From contig JADHLH010000016.1 in assembly GCA_016780765.1 (NCBI GenBank), positions 1 to 35,151 of the forward strand: a stretch of 35,151 bases of DNA, written 5' to 3'. The stretch is from Alphaproteobacteria bacterium (GTDB lineage Bacteria; Pseudomonadota; Alphaproteobacteria; Puniceispirillales; Puniceispirillaceae). The notes under the pieces were generated by a model. That model ran no database searches. It was not told the DNA's origin and worked only from the letters and a program-made list of their open reading frames with translations. Position 1 is the stretch's first letter. Every line of letters starts with the position of its first letter. Shown piece by piece: positions 53-20,291 of this stretch. Position numbers and translations under genes: made by a program.

Positions 53-2943
53 GAAGCATCTCCCTTGGTCTTGGTCTTGGTCTTGTCCTGCTCTGTCCAT
101 TCCATACCGTAACGCAGCGCTGCGTCCGGTCTGGGGCCACCATTCACCCGCGGCAGCGTATCGAATTGCGGCCAGGATTCAGCCGGCTCATCAGCTGCCG
201 CCTTTTCAATCCGGACCCGCAGATCAAACCACGCGGCCTGACCGGTCACCGGATCGGAATTGGCCCAGCGCATACCGTCATCCTGCGTTGGCAACAATTC
301 ATGGATCAGATGGTTCAGCAGGAAGCCCTTTTTGGCTTCTGGCGCATCGGGGTCGAGTTGCCAGGCACCTTTGCGCTTGCCGATCGCGTTCCATGTCCAG
401 ATGGTGTGTTCATTCACCCCTTCCATGACCGCCACCGGCGCACGAATCTTGCCATGGTGCGATGTCACCCAGATCCAGTCACCGTCAGCCAGATCATGCG
501 CGGCTGCCAGCGTCGCCGAAACAAACATCGGGTTATGCCCGTGAATTTGGCGCAGCCACGCATTCTGCGACCCCCAGGAATGATACATGGCCATCGGGCG
601 TTGGGTCAGCGCATGCAGCGGAAACGTGCCAGCATCGACGGCACTACCCTCAAACGGTGCATACCATGACGGCAGCGGCGTAAAACAGCGATGGATACGA
701 TCCTTCAGATGTGCCGGTGGTTGTTGCGGGCCATGACCTTCCGCTGCCAGACGGAACTTTTGCAGCACTTCGGAGTAAATCTGGAACGCATAGGGTTGCG
801 GGGCATCATAGAACCCCATCTCTACGGCAAAATCCTGATAGGCAGCGTTTGCCTGTTTGAAATAGCGCGCCTCGGCCGGGATGTCGGCATGCCAGAACGC
901 GCCATTTTTGATATAGGCATCCAACTGGTCCGCATTGGGCGCGCCGCGCCCTTTCTCATTGCCCTTTTCACCGCGAAAACCGGCCAGTGGGCCGATGCCG
1001 GGCTTGCGCTCATGATTGACGATATAGTCACCATAATCCTTGAATTTTGGTGATCCGTCGCCATTCACCATGCCGGGCAAACCAAGTCGCGCGCCCAGAT
1101 CCAGCAGCACTGACTGGAAGCCGCGCACATCACGATCAGGTTCCACCACCGGCCAGCGAATGGCATCGGCGACGCCGTCAGCCTCGCAGATTGGCCGATC
1201 CAGCAGCGAGATCGCGTCATGGCGTTCAAGATAGGTGGTGTCCGGCAAAATCAGATCGGCATAGGCGACCATTTCAGATGAATAGGCATCCGAATAGATG
1301 ATCTTGGGAATCTTGTAGTCACCAGTCTGAGGATCGGTCTCGGTCAGCATATCCATGACACCGCGTGTATTCATTGAGGAATTCCACGCCATATTGGCCA
1401 TATACATGAACAGGACATCCACCGGATAGGGATCACCCGCCACCGCGTTGGAGATGACCATATGCATCATCCCGTGCGCCGACATCGGGGCATCCCAGCT
1501 ATAGGCCTTGTCGATCCGCTGGGGTGCGCCATTGTCATCAATGATCAGGTCTTCCGGCCCCAATACATAACCAAGCGGCGCACCGCCAAGCGGCGTATCG
1601 GGTGCCACCTGATCAGGCCGGCCAGCGGGTTTCGGGTGCGCATGCGGCGGTTTCGGATATGGCGGCTTGAAACGAAAACCGCCCGGGGCCTCGACCGAGC
1701 CCAGAAGAAGCTGCAGCACATGCAGCGCGCGGCAGGTCTGGAAGCCGTTCGAATGCGCCGAGATACCGCGCATTGCATGCATCGACACCGGACGGCCGAT
1801 CATCTTGTCATGCCGTTCACCCTTCCAGTCGGTCCAGGGCTGGTCGATCACCACCTCTTCAGCAAAGGCGGCTTCGGCCAGATCTGCCGCAAACTGGCGG
1901 ATACGGTCCGCACTGATGCCAACAGCCGGGCTGACCGCCTCGGGGGCATAGGCATCATCCAGCCACGCTTCACCCATCAGCATGAAGACAGGCACGGCTG
2001 TTCCGCCGCCGTCCACCTTTACCTCACCATGCAGTGCCACCTTCACCGCAGCAGCATCATGCGGTGCAGGCTTGCCGGTTGCCCGGTCCAGCACCTGCGG
2101 CGTGCCCGCATCATCACGCAGGAACAGCCCGTCATTTGCTGCACCCGGATTGCGGATAACCAGCCACGGCGCGTTGGTATAGCGCGCCAGATAATCGATA
2201 TCGACCTTGCCAGCGCGCAACAACTCGCGGATCACCGACAGAATCAACAGCCCGTCCGTGCCCGGGGTCACCCCGAACCAGTCATCCGAAATAGCCGCAT
2301 AACCGGTCTGCACCGGATTGACCGAAATCACCCGTGCGCCGCGTCCCTTCAGCTTGCCAAGTCCCATCTTGATAGGGTTTGAATCATGGTCTTCGGCAAC
2401 GCCAAACAGCACAAACAGCTTGGTCAGGTCCCAGTCGGGCGAGCCAAACTCCCAGAACGCGCCGCCAAGCGTGTAGATGCCGCCCGCCGCCATATTGACC
2501 GAACAGAACCCGCCATGCGCGGCAAAATTGGGGGTTCCGAATTGTTGTGCCCACCAGCCGGTCAGCGCTTGCGACTGGTCCCTGCCGGTAAAGAAGGCCA
2601 GCTTCTTCGGATCGGTTTTGCGGATCGGTCCCAGCCAGCCCACCGCCGTTTCCAGCGCCTCTTCCCAGCTGATCGGTTCAAACTGGCCAGACCCGCGCGG
2701 GCCAACCCGTTTCATCGGGCTTTGCAGGCGTGCCGGTGAGTAATGCTGCATGATCCCGGCTGAGCCCTTGGCACACAGCACACCCTTATTGACCGGGTGA
2801 TCACGATTGCCCTCGATATAGCGAATCTTGCCATCGCGCAGATGCACATTGATGCCGCAGCGGCAGGCGCACATATAGCAGGTCGTTTGCTTGATCTCGT
2901 CGCTGACTTTTGGCGCGGTATCAATCCGGGGCTCTACACTCAT
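49..2943 (-). CDS. soeA: Molybdopterin oxidoreductase, sulfite dehydrogenase catalytic subunit SoeA-like
   Basis: A 964-residue Mo-bis-MGD enzyme of the DMSO reductase superfamily. The N-terminus carries a [4Fe-4S] motif with Cys22, Cys25, Cys29 and Cys57 (CxxCxxxC, then GVLCAKG). Cys147, in GGFCSVNMA, sits where the molybdenum-ligand cysteine of PsrA/PhsA/SoeA-type enzymes lies. There is no twin-arginine signal peptide, which fits the cytoplasm-facing SoeABC complex that oxidises sulfite to sulfate and reduces quinone. The start overlaps the pta stop (ATGA) and the stop overlaps soeB (ATGA), so the three genes are translationally coupled. With pta and taurine genes next door, its likely job is removing sulfite released from sulfoacetaldehyde. 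The last residues form a KTKTKTK tail from a hexanucleotide repeat. Related thiosulfate or polysulfide reductases are alternatives, but the context favours sulfite. Confidence 0.82.
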   Translation of the reverse strand: MSVEPRIDTAPKVSDEIKQTTCYMCACRCGINVHLRDGKIRYIEGNRDHPVNKGVLCAKGSAGIMQHYSPARLQSPMKRVGPRGSGQFEPISWEEALETAVGWLGPIRKTDPKKLAFFTGRDQSQALTGWWAQQFGTPNFAAHGGFCSVNMAAGGIYTLGGAFWEFGSPDWDLTKLFVLFGVAEDHDSNPIKMGLGKLKGRGARVISVNPVQTGYAAISDDWFGVTPGTDGLLILSVIRELLRAGKVDIDYLARYTNAPWLVIRNPGAANDGLFLRDDAGTPQVLDRATGKPAPHDAAAVKVALHGEVKVDGGGTAVPVFMLMGEAWLDDAYAPEAVSPAVGISADRIRQFAADLAEAAFAEEVVIDQPWTDWKGERHDKMIGRPVSMHAMRGISAHSNGFQTCRALHVLQLLLGSVEAPGGFRFKPPYPKPPHAHPKPAGRPDQVAPDTPLGGAPLGYVLGPEDLIIDDNGAPQRIDKAYSWDAPMSAHGMMHMVISNAVAGDPYPVDVLFMYMANMAWNSSMNTRGVMDMLTETDPQTGDYKIPKIIYSDAYSSEMVAYADLILPDTTYLERHDAISLLDRPICEADGVADAIRWPVVEPDRDVRGFQSVLLDLGARLGLPGMVNGDGSPKFKDYGDYIVNHERKPGIGPLAGFRGEKGNEKGRGAPNADQLDAYIKNGAFWHADIPAEARYFKQANAAYQDFAVEMGFYDAPQPYAFQIYSEVLQKFRLAAEGHGPQQPPAHLKDRIHRCFTPLPSWYAPFEGSAVDAGTFPLHALTQRPMAMYHSWGSQNAWLRQIHGHNPMFVSATLAAAHDLADGDWIWVTSHHGKIRAPVAVMEGVNEHTIWTWNAIGKRKGAWQLDPDAPEAKKGFLLNHLIHELLPTQDDGMRWANSDPVTGQAAWFDLRVRIEKAAADEPAESWPQFDTLPRVNGGPRPDAALRYGMEWTEQDKTKTKTKGDAS
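65..88. repeat. Hexanucleotide tandem repeat in the soeA 3' end
   Basis: Three perfect TTGGTC units (65-82) and one imperfect unit (TTGTCC). Read in the soeA frame they encode alternating Lys-Thr (KTKTKTK) six residues before the C-terminus. Likely a slippage-prone, non-essential tail. Confidence 0.85.
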
Positions 2944-3914
2944 TCCTGTTCCTCCTGACCGGCGATCGCGGCCAATACCAGAGATGCCAGACGCGCTGCC
3001 GGAGGGTCTGACCGGCTGGTCAGAATAATCGGTACGCGCCCGCCAAGCACAACACCCGCAGCAAGGCCGCCGGCAAAATAGACGATAGATTTGAATAGCA
3101 CATTGCCGGCCACAATGTCAGGAACGACAACTGCGTCAGCATGTCCGGCCACCCTGCCCTGCGGGTTGTCGCCTTCGATCCCCTTGATGCTGGCTGACAG
3201 GGGCGAGACCGCAAGGTCAAAAGACAGTGGACCGGCAAAGTCCGCAGCGCCATCAGCCGCCCCGGCGGCCACAGCAACTTCGGCCCCTTCAATACTGGAC
3301 GGCATGGCTGGCAGTTCTGATTCGGTGGCAGACAGAACGGCAATTCGCGGGCGCGCAATGCCCATGCGCCGCAACAAAGCTGCCATTTCCAGCGCCGCAG
3401 TTGTGCGGGTTGTGACATCCGGTGCGATATTGACCGCCGCATCACTGATCAGAAGCGGGCGTCCGCCATCAGGCGGCACCATGGCAAAAACATGCACAAG
3501 CCGCCGCGTTGTGCGAATACCGGATGCTCGGCGCACAATACCGCCCATGAAGACATCGGTGTGCAGCTGGCCCTTGACCAGACCTGCCGCACGGCCCTCG
3601 GCAACCAGCGCAATAGCCGTGGTGATTGCACCCTCTTCGCCATTCGCATCAATGATCTCTGCGCCTGCCAGATCCCATCCAATGGCAGCGGCGTCTTTTG
3701 CAATCTGCGCCGCCTCACCAACCAGCAACGGCAGGGCAAGCCCGGCAGCCACCGCATCACGTGCTGTTTCCAGCGTGGCAGTACCAGTGGCCCTGACAAA
3801 GGCCATCGGGCGCGGCACGGTCCCGGCAGCAAGCGCCAGAAAATCATCCGGGCACGCAGCTGGCGGTGTGCGCAAAAAGGCACTGCTATTCTTGTCTGAC
3901 AGACTGGCCGCCAT
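2940..3914 (-). CDS. pta: Phosphate acetyltransferase (short PTA_PTB type)
   Basis: A 324-residue protein of the phosphate acetyl/butyryl transferase family, without the long N-terminal DRTGG/BioD-like extension of E. coli Pta. It shows the family's alternating Rossmann-like pattern: VLVGEAAQIAKDAA-type segment near residue 85, GLVKGQLHTDVFMGGI near 135, DAAVNIAPD near 180, and a C-terminal GDNPQGRVAGHADAVVVPDIVAGNVLFKS segment (positions about 2986-3180). It interconverts acetyl phosphate and acetyl-CoA. Between soeA and tauR the obvious role is converting the acetyl phosphate made by sulfoacetaldehyde acetyltransferase (Xsc) to acetyl-CoA. ATG at 3914 lies downstream of a purine-rich GGGGGGAAGG stretch. 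A role with phosphate butyryl substrates cannot be excluded from sequence alone. Confidence 0.85.
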   Translation of the reverse strand: MAASLSDKNSSAFLRTPPAACPDDFLALAAGTVPRPMAFVRATGTATLETARDAVAAGLALPLLVGEAAQIAKDAAAIGWDLAGAEIIDANGEEGAITTAIALVAEGRAAGLVKGQLHTDVFMGGIVRRASGIRTTRRLVHVFAMVPPDGGRPLLISDAAVNIAPDVTTRTTAALEMAALLRRMGIARPRIAVLSATESELPAMPSSIEGAEVAVAAGAADGAADFAGPLSFDLAVSPLSASIKGIEGDNPQGRVAGHADAVVVPDIVAGNVLFKSIVYFAGGLAAGVVLGGRVPIILTSRSDPPAARLASLVLAAIAGQEEQE

Positions 3915-4141: not shown

Positions 4142-5626
4142 TCAGGGCCGCAATGTTTCCACCGCCGCCGCAAGCCGCCCTATACCCTCAGCGATCTGCG
4201 ATTCACCGATTGATGAATAGGCCAGCCGAAAATAGTTGTGTTGCGCTGCACCCGGCTGGAAAAACACCTCACCCGGCTCGATCAACACCCCCATTTCGGC
4301 GGCGCGGTCTGCCAGCGCGCGTGAATCCAGCCAGTCCGGTCCCTTCATCCAAAAACTGGTACCCCCGAAATGTGATGCCGTATGCGAAAACAGCTGATGC
4401 TGGTCCAGCGCGGCCTGCAACACCTGCCTGCGCCCGCCAAGGTGACGTCGCAAACGTCTGATCTGCGCATCGTAATGACCCAGCGCCATGAAGTAGGCCA
4501 ATGTGCGCTGGGCATGGCCGGGCGGGTGGCGCAAAATCAGATGCCGTAGGGCGCGCGCCTGCTCAATCAGTTGTTCGGGTGCCACAAGATACCCAAGCCG
4601 CAATCCCGGAAAAACCGATTTTGACAGGCTGCCAACATAGATGACACGCCCGTCATGATCCTGCGATTTCAATGCAGGTGTGGCTGGTTCGAGAAAGTTC
4701 ATCTCGAACTCGTAATCATCCTCGATGATGATGAAGTCATGTTGGCGTGCCAGATCCAGCAGCGCCCGCCTGCGGTCGGCCGGCATGGTATGCGTGGTCG
4801 GGCATTGATGGCTGGGGGTGATGAACACGGCATCGCTTTTGCCCAGCACATCCGCATCCAGAACCAGCCCACCCTTGTCGACCGGCAGACATGAAATATT
4901 GTCGGTGCGTTGTTTCAGGATATCACGCAGATCAGGATAGGCCGGGTCCTCGATCACCACATGGCGGTCAGCAGATACAAGCAATTGCGCAATCAGATAC
5001 AGGGCATTCTGCGCGCCAAGCGTAACAAGGATTTGTTCCGGACGCGCTGCAATCCCCCGCCGTGGCAGGCTGCGTGAGCAGATATAATTGACCAGCATCG
5101 GGTCATCATCCAGCCCGAAATCGCCAACCATACGGCCAAAATTGCGCATGCCCAGCGCCTGACGCGCGCAATCGCGCCAGTCGGTCATCGAGAACAGCTC
5201 GTTATCGACCTGCCCGTATACAAAGGGAAACGGGTATTCACGCCAGTTGAGCGGTTTTCGCACCGGCCGGATATCGGTGCAGCTTTGCACCAGCTTGCGA
5301 TCCCAGTCGATGCCCGCCATATCGCCGGGCACGTCGCTGGATGTGCCGGCGGGCGACACAAGACGCGACACGGGCGCATCAATACTGACGATATAGCCAC
5401 TGCGTTCACGCGGCTGCACAAAACCGGTATCGATCAGCGCCTGATACGCCAGCACAACAGTATTGCGCGAGACGCCCAGCTGTGTTGCCAGCATGCGGCT
5501 GGACGGCAGTTTGTCACCAGGCAGAATGGCGCGGGCCAGAATCGCCTCAACCACCGATTCGCGGATCTGTGCCTGCAGACTTGTCTCGGCTTTCGGATCG
5601 ACAGTGATGATCAGGTGATCCAGCAT
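4142..5626 (-). CDS. tauR: MocR/GntR-family transcriptional regulator with aminotransferase domain, TauR-like
   Basis: About 494 residues when started at the ATG at 5626, which has an AGGA element five bases upstream (AGGAAACAG-ATG). An upstream in-frame ATG at 5695 would add 23 residues unlike the family N-terminus. Residues 1-75 are a GntR winged helix (LPSSRMLATQLGVSRNTVVLAYQAL). Residues from about 110 on form a fold-type I aminotransferase-like domain with the PLP-lysine motif SLSKS (Lys336) and GLRLGY. Such MocR proteins sense a ligand through PLP; TauR activates taurine genes. The gene sits divergent to tpa and upstream of pta-soeAB, as expected for the local regulator of taurine dissimilation. 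The TauR name rests on context and the MLDHLIITVDP start; a GabR-like function is possible. Confidence 0.8.
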   Translation of the reverse strand: MLDHLIITVDPKAETSLQAQIRESVVEAILARAILPGDKLPSSRMLATQLGVSRNTVVLAYQALIDTGFVQPRERSGYIVSIDAPVSRLVSPAGTSSDVPGDMAGIDWDRKLVQSCTDIRPVRKPLNWREYPFPFVYGQVDNELFSMTDWRDCARQALGMRNFGRMVGDFGLDDDPMLVNYICSRSLPRRGIAARPEQILVTLGAQNALYLIAQLLVSADRHVVIEDPAYPDLRDILKQRTDNISCLPVDKGGLVLDADVLGKSDAVFITPSHQCPTTHTMPADRRRALLDLARQHDFIIIEDDYEFEMNFLEPATPALKSQDHDGRVIYVGSLSKSVFPGLRLGYLVAPEQLIEQARALRHLILRHPPGHAQRTLAYFMALGHYDAQIRRLRRHLGGRRQVLQAALDQHQLFSHTASHFGGTSFWMKGPDWLDSRALADRAAEMGVLIEPGEVFFQPGAAQHNYFRLAYSSIGESQIAEGIGRLAAAVETLRP

Positions 5627-5705
5627 CTGTTTCCTGCCTGTTGCAGCGGCCAGACTGCGCGGCGAATCGCCCCAGTTGGCGTGTTCTGGCTCCATGATAA
5701 GCCTG

Positions 5706-5719
5706 ATCTGGTTCTATAG
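5706..5719. promoter_or_regulatory. Candidate tauR promoter element / MocR site
   Basis: The plus strand reads ATCTGGTTCTATAG; its complement supplies TATAGA (5718-5713), a plausible -10 for tauR, with a loosely matching TAGACA 15 bases further upstream. CTGG followed by an AT-rich CTATAG palindrome overlapping the -10 resembles sites reported for self-regulated MocR factors. No footprint-level support is visible. Confidence 0.3.
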
Positions 5720-5830
5720 TAGGCCGGAAAGCCTGTCTAGCCTTTGACATTAGCGGGGTAGCGTGCAGAGTTGGCATGTGACATGTGCCGTGTCACACCG
5801 TTGCTGCAAAGCCGCCGTATGCGACCAATT

Positions 5831-5890
5831 CCGGTGCCAGATGCCGGTGCCAGATGCCGGTGCCAGATGCCGGTGCCAGATGCCGATACC
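5831..5890. repeat. 13-bp tandem repeat in the tpa leader
   Basis: Four perfect copies of CCGGTGCCAGATG (5831-5843, 5844-5856, 5857-5869, 5870-5882) and a diverged partial copy (5883-5890). The array is bracketed by ACCAATT at 5824-5830 and again at 5888-5894. It ends 25 bases before the tpa start codon, so it lies in the 5' leader or promoter. Each unit contains CCAGAT, whose complement ATCTGG also occurs in the tauR promoter element at 5706. Confidence 0.95.
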
Positions 5891-5907
5891 AATTGAGGGA
5901 GACCACC

Positions 5908-7236
5908 ATGTCCGATACAGCCATGTCCTATGACGTGAATTCGCTTGAAGCGCACTGGATGCCCTTCTCTGCCAACCGTGACTTCAAGAAAAACCCGCGG
6001 ATGGTTGTCAAATCCGAAGGCATGTATATGTGGGATTACAAGGGCGGGCAGGTCATTGACGGGTCCTCGGCCCTGTTCTGCACACCGGCTGGCCATGGTC
6101 GTCGCGAAATTGCCGAAGCTGTCTATAACCAGATGCTGAACAATGACTATGCGCCGCATTTCCAGCTTGGCCATCCGGGTTCGTTCGAACTGGCCGAGCG
6201 TGTCTGCCGGCTGCTGCCAGATGATTTCAATCACCTGTTCTTCACGAATTCCGGATCGGAATCAGTGGAAACGGCGATCAAGGTAATCCTGGCCTATCAG
6301 CGGGCGCGGGGCGAGTCGCAGCGCAACCGGCTGATCAGCCGCGAGCGCGCCTATCACGGCGTCAATATGGGCGGTGTGTCGCTTGCGGGCATGGTGCGCA
6401 ACCGCGAAACCTTTGGCCTGACCCTGCCCAATATCTCGCTGATCCGGCACACCTGGACCGAGGACCAGCGCTTTTCGAAAGGCCAGCCCAAGACTGGCGC
6501 AGAACTGGCGATGGATCTGGACCGGATTGCCGAAAATCTTGGAGGCAGCACGCTGGCGGCTGTGTTCATTGAACCTGTGGCCGGATCAACCGGCACGCTG
6601 GTCCCGCCTGTGGGCTATCTCGAGAAAATCCGCGAAATCTGCGACAAGCACGGCATGCTGTTGGTGTTTGACGAGGTGATCACCGGGTTCGGGCGTATGG
6701 GCACACCATTTGCCACACAGAAATTCAACGTCAAGCCGGATATCATCACCATGGCAAAGGCGCTGACCAACGGGGCCATTCCGATGGGCGGTGTTGCGGT
6801 GACTGACGAGATTTATGAAACGGTGACGAACGCCGCACCGGAAAATGCCATCGAATTCTTCCATGGCTATACCTATTCGGCACATCCGGCTGCCTGCGCT
6901 GCCGGTATCGCCACCCAGAAAATCTATGAAACTGAAGGGCTGTTCGAAAACGCAGCTGCGCTGGAGCCCTATTTCCTCGACGCAATTTTCTCGTTGCAGG
7001 ATCATCCGATGGTGGCCGATGTGCGCGGCATCGGCATGATGGGCGGCATCGAGGTGCATCCCGAAGGCGGGCCCGGCAAACGCGGCGGCGAATTGCAAAA
7101 GAAGATGTTCTGGAACGGGCTGCATGTGAAATGGACAGGCGATAACGGTATCATCGCCCCGGCCTTTGTTGCCGAACGCAAACATATCGACGAAATTGTC
7201 GACAAGTTCCGCAAAACCCTCGACCAGATGATGTAA
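5908..7236 (+). CDS. tpa: Class III aminotransferase, probable taurine:pyruvate aminotransferase
   Basis: A 442-residue PLP enzyme of the omega-amino-acid transaminase group. The start at 5908 follows GAGGGAG with a short spacer; the longer reading frame upstream only translates the tandem repeat. Visible features are HWMPFSANRDFKKNPR at the N-terminus, the NSGSESVETAIK PLP-phosphate region, LVFDEVITGFGR, and Schiff-base Lys284 in ITMAKALTNGAIPMGG. The reaction is transfer of an omega-amino group to pyruvate, giving alanine and an aldehyde. Neighbouring tauR, pta and soeAB make taurine (giving sulfoacetaldehyde) the best substrate guess. Beta-alanine or hypotaurine transamination is the main alternative, since the fold does not separate these by eye. 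The next gene follows after 25 bases on the same strand. Confidence 0.8.
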   Translation: MSDTAMSYDVNSLEAHWMPFSANRDFKKNPRMVVKSEGMYMWDYKGGQVIDGSSALFCTPAGHGRREIAEAVYNQMLNNDYAPHFQLGHPGSFELAERVCRLLPDDFNHLFFTNSGSESVETAIKVILAYQRARGESQRNRLISRERAYHGVNMGGVSLAGMVRNRETFGLTLPNISLIRHTWTEDQRFSKGQPKTGAELAMDLDRIAENLGGSTLAAVFIEPVAGSTGTLVPPVGYLEKIREICDKHGMLLVFDEVITGFGRMGTPFATQKFNVKPDIITMAKALTNGAIPMGGVAVTDEIYETVTNAAPENAIEFFHGYTYSAHPAACAAGIATQKIYETEGLFENAAALEPYFLDAIFSLQDHPMVADVRGIGMMGGIEVHPEGGPGKRGGELQKKMFWNGLHVKWTGDNGIIAPAFVAERKHIDEIVDKFRKTLDQMM

Positions 7237-9691: not shown

Positions 9692-10699
9692 ATGACCAGC
9701 CTGATCACAGCCATGCATGAAGCACGCGCCCATCACGGCACCGGCGATGACGCCACGTTTGCCATCGCCGCGCTGTATAAATTCGTCGACCTTGATGATC
9801 ACCGGGCCTTGCAGCCGGTCTTGCAGGATCTTTGCGATTCCCAAGGCATTCAAGGCACTGTGCTGCTGGCCGAAGAAGGGATCAACGGCACCATCTGCGG
9901 TACAGTGGCGGGTATGGAAACGGTGCTGCAGTGGCTGGCGGACGACAGCCGTTTCAACGATCTGTCGATCAAATTCTCATTCGCGGGCGAACAGGCTTTC
10001 CTGCGTATGAAGGTGCGGCTGAAGCGCGAGATCGTCACCATGGGCTGTCCTGACATCCGCCCTGCACAGGCCACCGGCACCTATGTCGATCCGGCCGAAT
10101 GGGACGCGCTGATCGATGATCCCGATGTGATGGTGATCGACACCCGTAATCGCTATGAAACAGCCATTGGCAGTTTCCGCGGCGCGGTTGATCCGGAAAC
10201 CGACAGCTTTCGCGAATTTCCCGAATGGGCCGCCGCCCTGGCCAGCCGCAATGATGGAACGCGTCCACGCAAACTGGCGATGTTCTGCACCGGCGGCATC
10301 CGCTGCGAGAAAGCAAGCGCGCTGATGCAGTCCCAAGGCTTTGACGAGGTCTACCATCTGAAGGGTGGCATTCTGAAATATCTTGAGGATATCCCGCAGG
10401 AAGACAGCAGCTGGCAGGGCGAATGCTTTGTCTTTGATAGCCGCGTGGCAGTGGATCATGACCTGCAGCCGGGGCAATATGGCATGTGCCATGCCTGCCG
10501 TATGCCGCTGGCCCCGCAGGACTTGTCCCACCCGGAATATGCGCCGGGGATCAGCTGTCACCATTGCCGTGACGGCCAGGATCCGCAGCAACGCGCGCGG
10601 TTCATGGAACGACAAAAACAGGTCAGACTGGCAGCAGAGCGCGGCGAGGCGCATATCGGCGCAGCAGCGCGCGACAGCCGTAAATCCCGTGACGCCTAA
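9692..10699 (+). CDS. trhO: tRNA uridine(34) hydroxylase, rhodanese domain (TrhO/YceA)
   Basis: A 335-residue protein with the TrhO layout: an N-terminal acylphosphatase-like domain (FAIAALYKFVDLDD, GTVLLAEEGINGTICG), a central rhodanese domain with Cys199 and Cys205 in CTGGIRCEKAS, and a C-terminal pair of CxxC motifs (Cys266/Cys269 and Cys289/Cys292) likely binding zinc. TrhO hydroxylates wobble uridine 34 of certain tRNAs using oxygen, a step toward cmo5U/mo5U. Start chosen at 9692, where homology begins; it lacks a strong ribosome site, and in-frame ATGs at 9623 and 9713 remain possible. It is divergent from the dioxygenase gene, with 141 bases between the two starts. Confidence 0.88.
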   Translation: MTSLITAMHEARAHHGTGDDATFAIAALYKFVDLDDHRALQPVLQDLCDSQGIQGTVLLAEEGINGTICGTVAGMETVLQWLADDSRFNDLSIKFSFAGEQAFLRMKVRLKREIVTMGCPDIRPAQATGTYVDPAEWDALIDDPDVMVIDTRNRYETAIGSFRGAVDPETDSFREFPEWAAALASRNDGTRPRKLAMFCTGGIRCEKASALMQSQGFDEVYHLKGGILKYLEDIPQEDSSWQGECFVFDSRVAVDHDLQPGQYGMCHACRMPLAPQDLSHPEYAPGISCHHCRDGQDPQQRARFMERQKQVRLAAERGEAHIGAAARDSRKSRDA

Positions 10700-10736
10700 A
10701 TCCGGTGAAACATAAATCCGGTGAAACATAAATCCG
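10681..10736. repeat. 16-bp tandem repeat across the trhO stop codon
   Basis: Units of TAAATCCGGTGAAACA at 10697-10712 and 10713-10728, a partial third at 10729-10736, and a diverged first unit at 10681-10696 inside the gene. The real stop TAA is the start of the second unit, so each later unit repeats a TAA. It fills the convergent gap between trhO and yqjG. Confidence 0.93.
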
Positions 10737-20255: not shown

Positions 20256-20291
20256 CAGATCATTTCAGGCCAGATCATTTCAGGCCAGATC
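20256..20291. repeat. 15-bp tandem repeat between adhC and fghA
   Basis: CAGATCATTTCAGGC occurs at 20256-20270 and 20271-20285 and is followed by a third CAGATC. It fills much of the 61-base gap between the adhC stop and the fghA ribosome site. Confidence 0.93.

Follow-up and report, generated by a model that had tools for sequence, protein, structure and literature searches.

Tandem repeats in bacterial spacers have well-described precedents. In bacterial intergenic VNTR loci, or minisatellites (long simple sequence repeats, MLVA loci), perfect units stand head to tail, copy number differs between relatives, and units are unrelated between loci. Marine Beggiatoaceae carry intergenic tandem TAACTGA repeats close 5' of start codons, one heptamer over 169 sets (PMC4679880). 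Operators of MocR-family regulators form a third point of comparison: their boxes are described as spaced one or several helix turns apart, and R. capsulatus TauR as binding CTGGACYTAA repeats (PMC5320631).

The array described here, four 13-bp units before the taurine-pyruvate aminotransferase gene tpa, resembles each of these systems and departs from each. It shares with VNTR loci its perfect head-to-tail spacer units, a copy number differing between relatives, and units unrelated from one array to the next; unlike them, it belongs to a genome where a sizeable fraction of the spacers contains arrays, and the variation known here is between species. As in the Beggiatoaceae, intergenic tandem repeats lie close 5' of a start codon in a marine bacterium, but the arrays of the present genome each consist of a different unit, mostly of 12–17 bp, where the Beggiatoaceae sets share a single heptamer (PMC4679880). 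Two direct CTGG boxes at 5686–5716, spaced by 22 bp, match the TauR/MocR kind (PMC5320631), whereas the array is 13-bp spaced, reverse in orientation and more than 100 bp downstream. We conclude that the array is probably an intergenic minisatellite produced by slippage, with TauR acting at the separate operator and the array itself having little or no specific regulatory role.

The window, the whole 35,151-nucleotide stretch that was analysed, is one complete contig of a SAR116-clade genome (G000). The nearest named relative in our collection is CPC65, a SAR116 metagenome-assembled genome; over the best segment, the two tpa products share 99% identity. The features needed here are as follows.

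2940–3914, minus strand: phosphate acetyltransferase gene (pta-like), fitting taurine dissimilation
4142–5626, minus strand: tauR, MocR-family regulator gene divergent from tpa, with a predicted start
5684–5697, plus strand: candidate TauR operator box 1, TTCTGGCTCCATGA, of the 22-bp paired-box pattern
5706–5719, plus strand: candidate TauR operator box 2, ATCTGGTTCTATAG, 22 bp past box 1
5735–5741, plus strand: GTCTAGC, candidate -10 region of the tpa promoter, conserved 27–28 nt past box 2 in all 11 genus leaders
5824–5830, plus strand: left-hand ACCAATT flanking the array
5831–5882, plus strand: tandem array of four identical 13-bp units, CCGGTGCCAGATG (minus strand, CATCTGGCACCGG)
5883–5894, plus strand: degenerate fifth unit, CCGATACCAATT, holding the right-hand ACCAATT, in a 13-bp register shared with the CPC65 alignment (L034)
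5896–5901, plus strand: Shine-Dalgarno-like AGGGAG of tpa, read from the sequence, with GGAGA aligned in relatives
5908–7236, plus strand: tpa; context points to a taurine-pyruvate aminotransferase, and the product passes the NCBIfam cut-off of the AptA omega-aminotransferase model

Genomic context identifies the two genes that flank the array. Among NCBIfam models, PdxR fits the tauR product best (342.8 bits; cut-off 320). On the minus strand past tauR lie genes for phosphate acetyltransferase and a molybdopterin oxidoreductase, and a true xsc is encoded elsewhere in the genome (933.6 bits against a cut-off of 676.4). Because these genes accompany tauR and tpa, and because tpa and xsc have an operator pattern in common, as expected for a TauR orthologue with pta nearby, we read the pair as TauR and Tpa. 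The tauR start at 5626 (MLDHL...) is likelier than the one at 5695, since the ATG at 5695, which gives the longest ORF, overlaps operator box 1.

The array is an exact and non-random feature of this leader. Tandem Repeats Finder (TRF) reports CCGGTGCCAGATG x 4.2 with 100% matches over 5831–5885 (score 110), and both TRF and the sequence bear out the first-pass annotation in its description of four perfect 13-bp copies, flanking ACCAATT repeats and 25 bases (5883–5907) between the fourth unit and the tpa ATG. Its interval, however, ended at 5890 and so splits the second ACCAATT, which spans 5888–5894. The left-hand ACCAATT at 5824–5830 is probably what is left of an older unit. Across the source genome (2.25 Mb, 82% complete) the double unit occurs at the array alone, and an array of score 110 is not a chance product, since Markov shuffles of 25 kb of the genome's own spacer DNA gave a mean of just 0.2 arrays with a TRF score of at least 50.

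The array lies outside coding sequence, in the spacer that separates tauR from the tpa ATG and its Shine-Dalgarno sequence. The tpa frame is also open 5' through the array up to a GTG at 5785 (5785–5907), an extension that is probably fortuitous because a Shine-Dalgarno sequence precedes 5908. Each unit contains an ATG; since the 13-bp period is not divisible by 3, successive ATGs move from frame to frame and cover all three, and by position the one at 5854 is in frame with tpa. Judged by eye, none of the in-array ATGs has a Shine-Dalgarno sequence, whereas ATG 5908 has one. Leader RNA structure was no better than that of shuffled sequences (-23.0 kcal/mol, shuffled mean -27.4 kcal/mol, z = +1.5), and an Rfam search of the window gave no match.

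Comparison with relatives reveals a difference of exactly one unit. In the alignment, a gap leaves CPC65 precisely 13 bp, or one unit, short of the source genome, and the CPC65 units have diverged from each other; the array must therefore predate the split between the two, while the copies in the source genome look recently made uniform. The tpa genes are 93.6% identical in DNA and the promoter regions nearly identical, and the leader at about 5758–5830 is poorly conserved. The comparison of copy number that the first-pass annotation had called for accordingly returned a change of one unit between two related species, each represented by one genome. Near-identical head-to-tail units at a non-coding site, with copy number differing in one relative, are among the hallmarks of a VNTR locus. 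The other nine of 11 genus tpa leaders lack a 13-bp array at the corresponding place. Two tpa leaders have arrays of their own with unrelated units, three in G001 and one in G003; those of G001 (L016) have periods of 14, 23 and 14 and lie 68–256 bp before the start of the tpa match.

Variation of this kind could in principle be put to use. Slippage that changes unit number from cell to cell might turn the array into a copy-number rheostat that tunes translation or stability of the tpa mRNA, or the choice among in-array ATGs. The one-unit difference between two related species, the unit identity that suggests recent expansion, and the ATG in every unit with the 5854 copy in the tpa frame are all consistent with such a role. 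Against it, no within-population variation is seen with one genome per species, RNA structure does not go beyond shuffles, and ribosome-binding signals favour ATG 5908 over the ATGs in the array. We regard the rheostat as very unlikely.

Spacer arrays of this type are abundant in the source genome. We took a census of arrays with TRF scores of at least 50 in sampled stretches, where a simple longest-ORF rule marked off the spacers. In the source genome, 25.5 kb of sampled spacer contained 23 arrays, of which 20 have periods of 11–19 and units unrelated to one another, compared with one array in 31.7 kb (3 per 100 kb) in E. coli K-12 and 3.5 per 100 kb at non-SAR116 alphaproteobacterial loci. 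Rates per 100 kb of spacer are 90 in the source genome, 35 in G001, 50 in G016, 86 in G023, 49 in G013 and 84 in G018, which together span four genera. Elsewhere they are 0 in G027 (7.9 kb), 19 in G017, 0 in G012 (4.8 kb), 13 in G037, 0 in G043, 60 in G038 (4 arrays) and 11 in G039. Shuffled spacers from five genomes yielded 0 to 0.4 arrays per sample. Richness does not follow family cleanly, since distant G038 is high and zeros occur inside the family, with small samples making these rates uncertain. Spacers with arrays are convergent, divergent and co-directional alike, so there is no evident preference for leaders.

Further arrays of this class are found in the window and beyond it. Two other window spacers hold arrays, at 10681–10736 and 20256–20291; the former is absent in the one relative aligned, the latter in all four. 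Many 11–19-bp spacer arrays occur at loci L124–L143, L144–L169, L183–L195, L265–L269 and L280–L284, from several SAR116 genera. A repair-gene cause of array-rich genomes was considered and rejected: of 61 genomes, 51 have a MutS above the family cut-off and 57 have some MutS match, and SbcD is above its cut-off in one of the 61, being missing from array-rich and array-poor genomes alike. A search of the SAR116 and Puniceispirillum repeat literature, judged by title, returned no paper on these arrays.

A separate pair of boxes near the promoter is the candidate TauR operator. In the window, two direct CTGGnnCYA boxes stand exactly 22 bp apart (5686–5716). The tpa promoters of relatives have two direct boxes at the same 22-bp spacing, and 21 distinct pairs were gathered, with the source genome and its closest relative left out. 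Searching 12 genus genomes for CTGGnnCYA-13-CTGGnnCYA returned 19 occurrences in 11 genomes, every one of them, by coordinates, before tpa or xsc; the reversed-pattern control gave none in the same 12 genomes. Only G009 lacks the pattern, and its tpa match is truncated. The ATCTGG at 5706, which the first-pass annotation had assigned to a tauR promoter element, proves to be part of this candidate operator, falling in box 2 of a direct repeat limited to tpa and xsc. The 22-bp spacing fits the helix-turn rule described for MocR boxes (PMC5320631), and 13 bp does not. On this sequence evidence, TauR most likely controls tpa through the conserved 22-bp direct-box pair at the promoter.

The sole other occurrence in the source genome is the xsc operator pair at G000:C35:3014-3044 (L320), and the xsc boxes resemble the R. 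capsulatus consensus CTGGACYTAA (PMC5320631). The xsc upstream region contains short duplications too, with periods of about 13 and 14. Several genus leaders share a conserved (G/A)TGCCACCATCGGTCGCA-like element about 50 nt past box 2 (L006, L008, L009, L011, L012, L013, L007 and L016); it is not evident in the window, unlike in many genus members.

The array probably lies within the transcribed leader. If GTCTAGC is read as the -10 region, tpa transcription would start near 5750, placing the array, about 115 bp downstream of the operator, in the predicted 5' leader. A consensus scan of 5600–5960 for a sigma-70 promoter and a terminator found neither. The suggestion that the array is a spacing element tuning TauR action is unlikely to hold, since the array is downstream of both operator and predicted promoter and alters no spacing between them.

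The unit nevertheless resembles a TauR box. CCAGAT, the complement of ATCTGG (5706–5711), is present in every unit, as first noticed, and the minus-strand unit ATCTGGCACCGG is one letter off the box-1 consensus ATCTGGCACCAG (11 of 12 positions). Among 130 sampled arrays with periods of 10–22, coding ones included, this unit has the top box-1 PWM score. Reverse box-1-like sites near the start codon reach p<=0.02 against shuffles in five of 11 genus tpa leaders (G000, G005, G010, G004 and G007), p values that are partly after the fact because a remark in the first-pass annotation prompted the test. The nearest relative's reverse site near the tpa start is a perfect ATCTGGCACCAG. Some 7 equally good or better matches occur in 221 kb of sampled genome, a chance of roughly 0.6% per leader. 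We take the likeness as suggestive, short of a demonstration that TauR binds there: given its box-1 rank and the reverse sites in relatives, the array may have arisen on, or kept, a word that TauR might read.

These observations sustain the main rival to the minisatellite reading, in which an auxiliary TauR half-site was multiplied in tandem to give the array, starting from a single reverse box-1-like site near the tpa start that was inherited in the genus. We keep it alongside because the unit is the best box-1 match and a single similar site exists in some relatives, and we judge it unlikely. A working version, in which four copies hold extra TauR near tpa and so raise its local concentration or put a roadblock into the leader, seems to us just as doubtful. 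The rank among arrays, the five leaders and the low background rate speak for both. On the other side, spacings of 13, 26 and 39 bp do not keep the phase of the 22-bp operator or the helix-turn spacing described for MocR boxes (PMC5320631), and the distance to the operator varies between species. The reverse site misses p<=0.02 in six of 11 genus leaders (G001 is borderline at 0.057; G002, G003, G006, G008 and G011 are not significant), and reaches it in one of eight xsc leaders and none of 18 tpa leaders of other genera. The co-regulated xsc leader of the source genome has no reverse box-1 site at p<=0.02 and no array units. The word WTCTGGCACCNG is common genome-wide, with 21 matches, four in the array and 17 outside it, against two for the reversed control. 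A pattern search found no operator pair within the array. What survives of the proposed row of regulator half-sites is the sequence likeness, the closest to box 1 of 130 arrays; a working row of TauR sites finds no support, given the 13-bp spacing, the opposite orientation, the absence from the genome's own xsc leader and the lack of an array in nine of 11 genus leaders.

A site for some other DNA- or RNA-binding protein, unrelated to TauR, is highly improbable. GTGCCA(G) persists close to the start codon in several genus leaders that otherwise diverge, as such a site might, but the double unit occurs at this one place in the genome, and a regulon would need the same array at a second gene.

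Instead, we read the array as belonging to a minisatellite class that is spread over the genome, because spacer arrays are common in this genome, the nearest relative has one unit fewer, and 13 bp misfits the operator. Slipped-strand replication would have expanded a segment of about 13 bp in the fast-evolving tpa leader, and the same process may have seeded the many unrelated 11–19-bp spacer arrays in this SAR116 genus and in some genera close to it. Downstream of the promoter, in the predicted 5' leader, the array would be near-neutral, with little or no specific regulatory role. It is also conceivable, and in our estimate quite unlikely, that the genome-wide process captured and amplified a half-site of the local activator, TauR. 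The tpa leader would then have an expandable row of regulator boxes, and changes in their number over evolution could tune taurine use in SAR116 bacteria.

The array is probably of minor importance for tpa itself. The surrounding analysis provides a clean candidate TauR operator, confined to tpa and xsc, for an ecologically important marine clade, together with evidence that short-period arrays of unrelated units occupy a substantial fraction of the spacers in several SAR116 genera. If the box-1 likeness is functional, a minisatellite process that copies regulator sites would offer a route to regulatory evolution.
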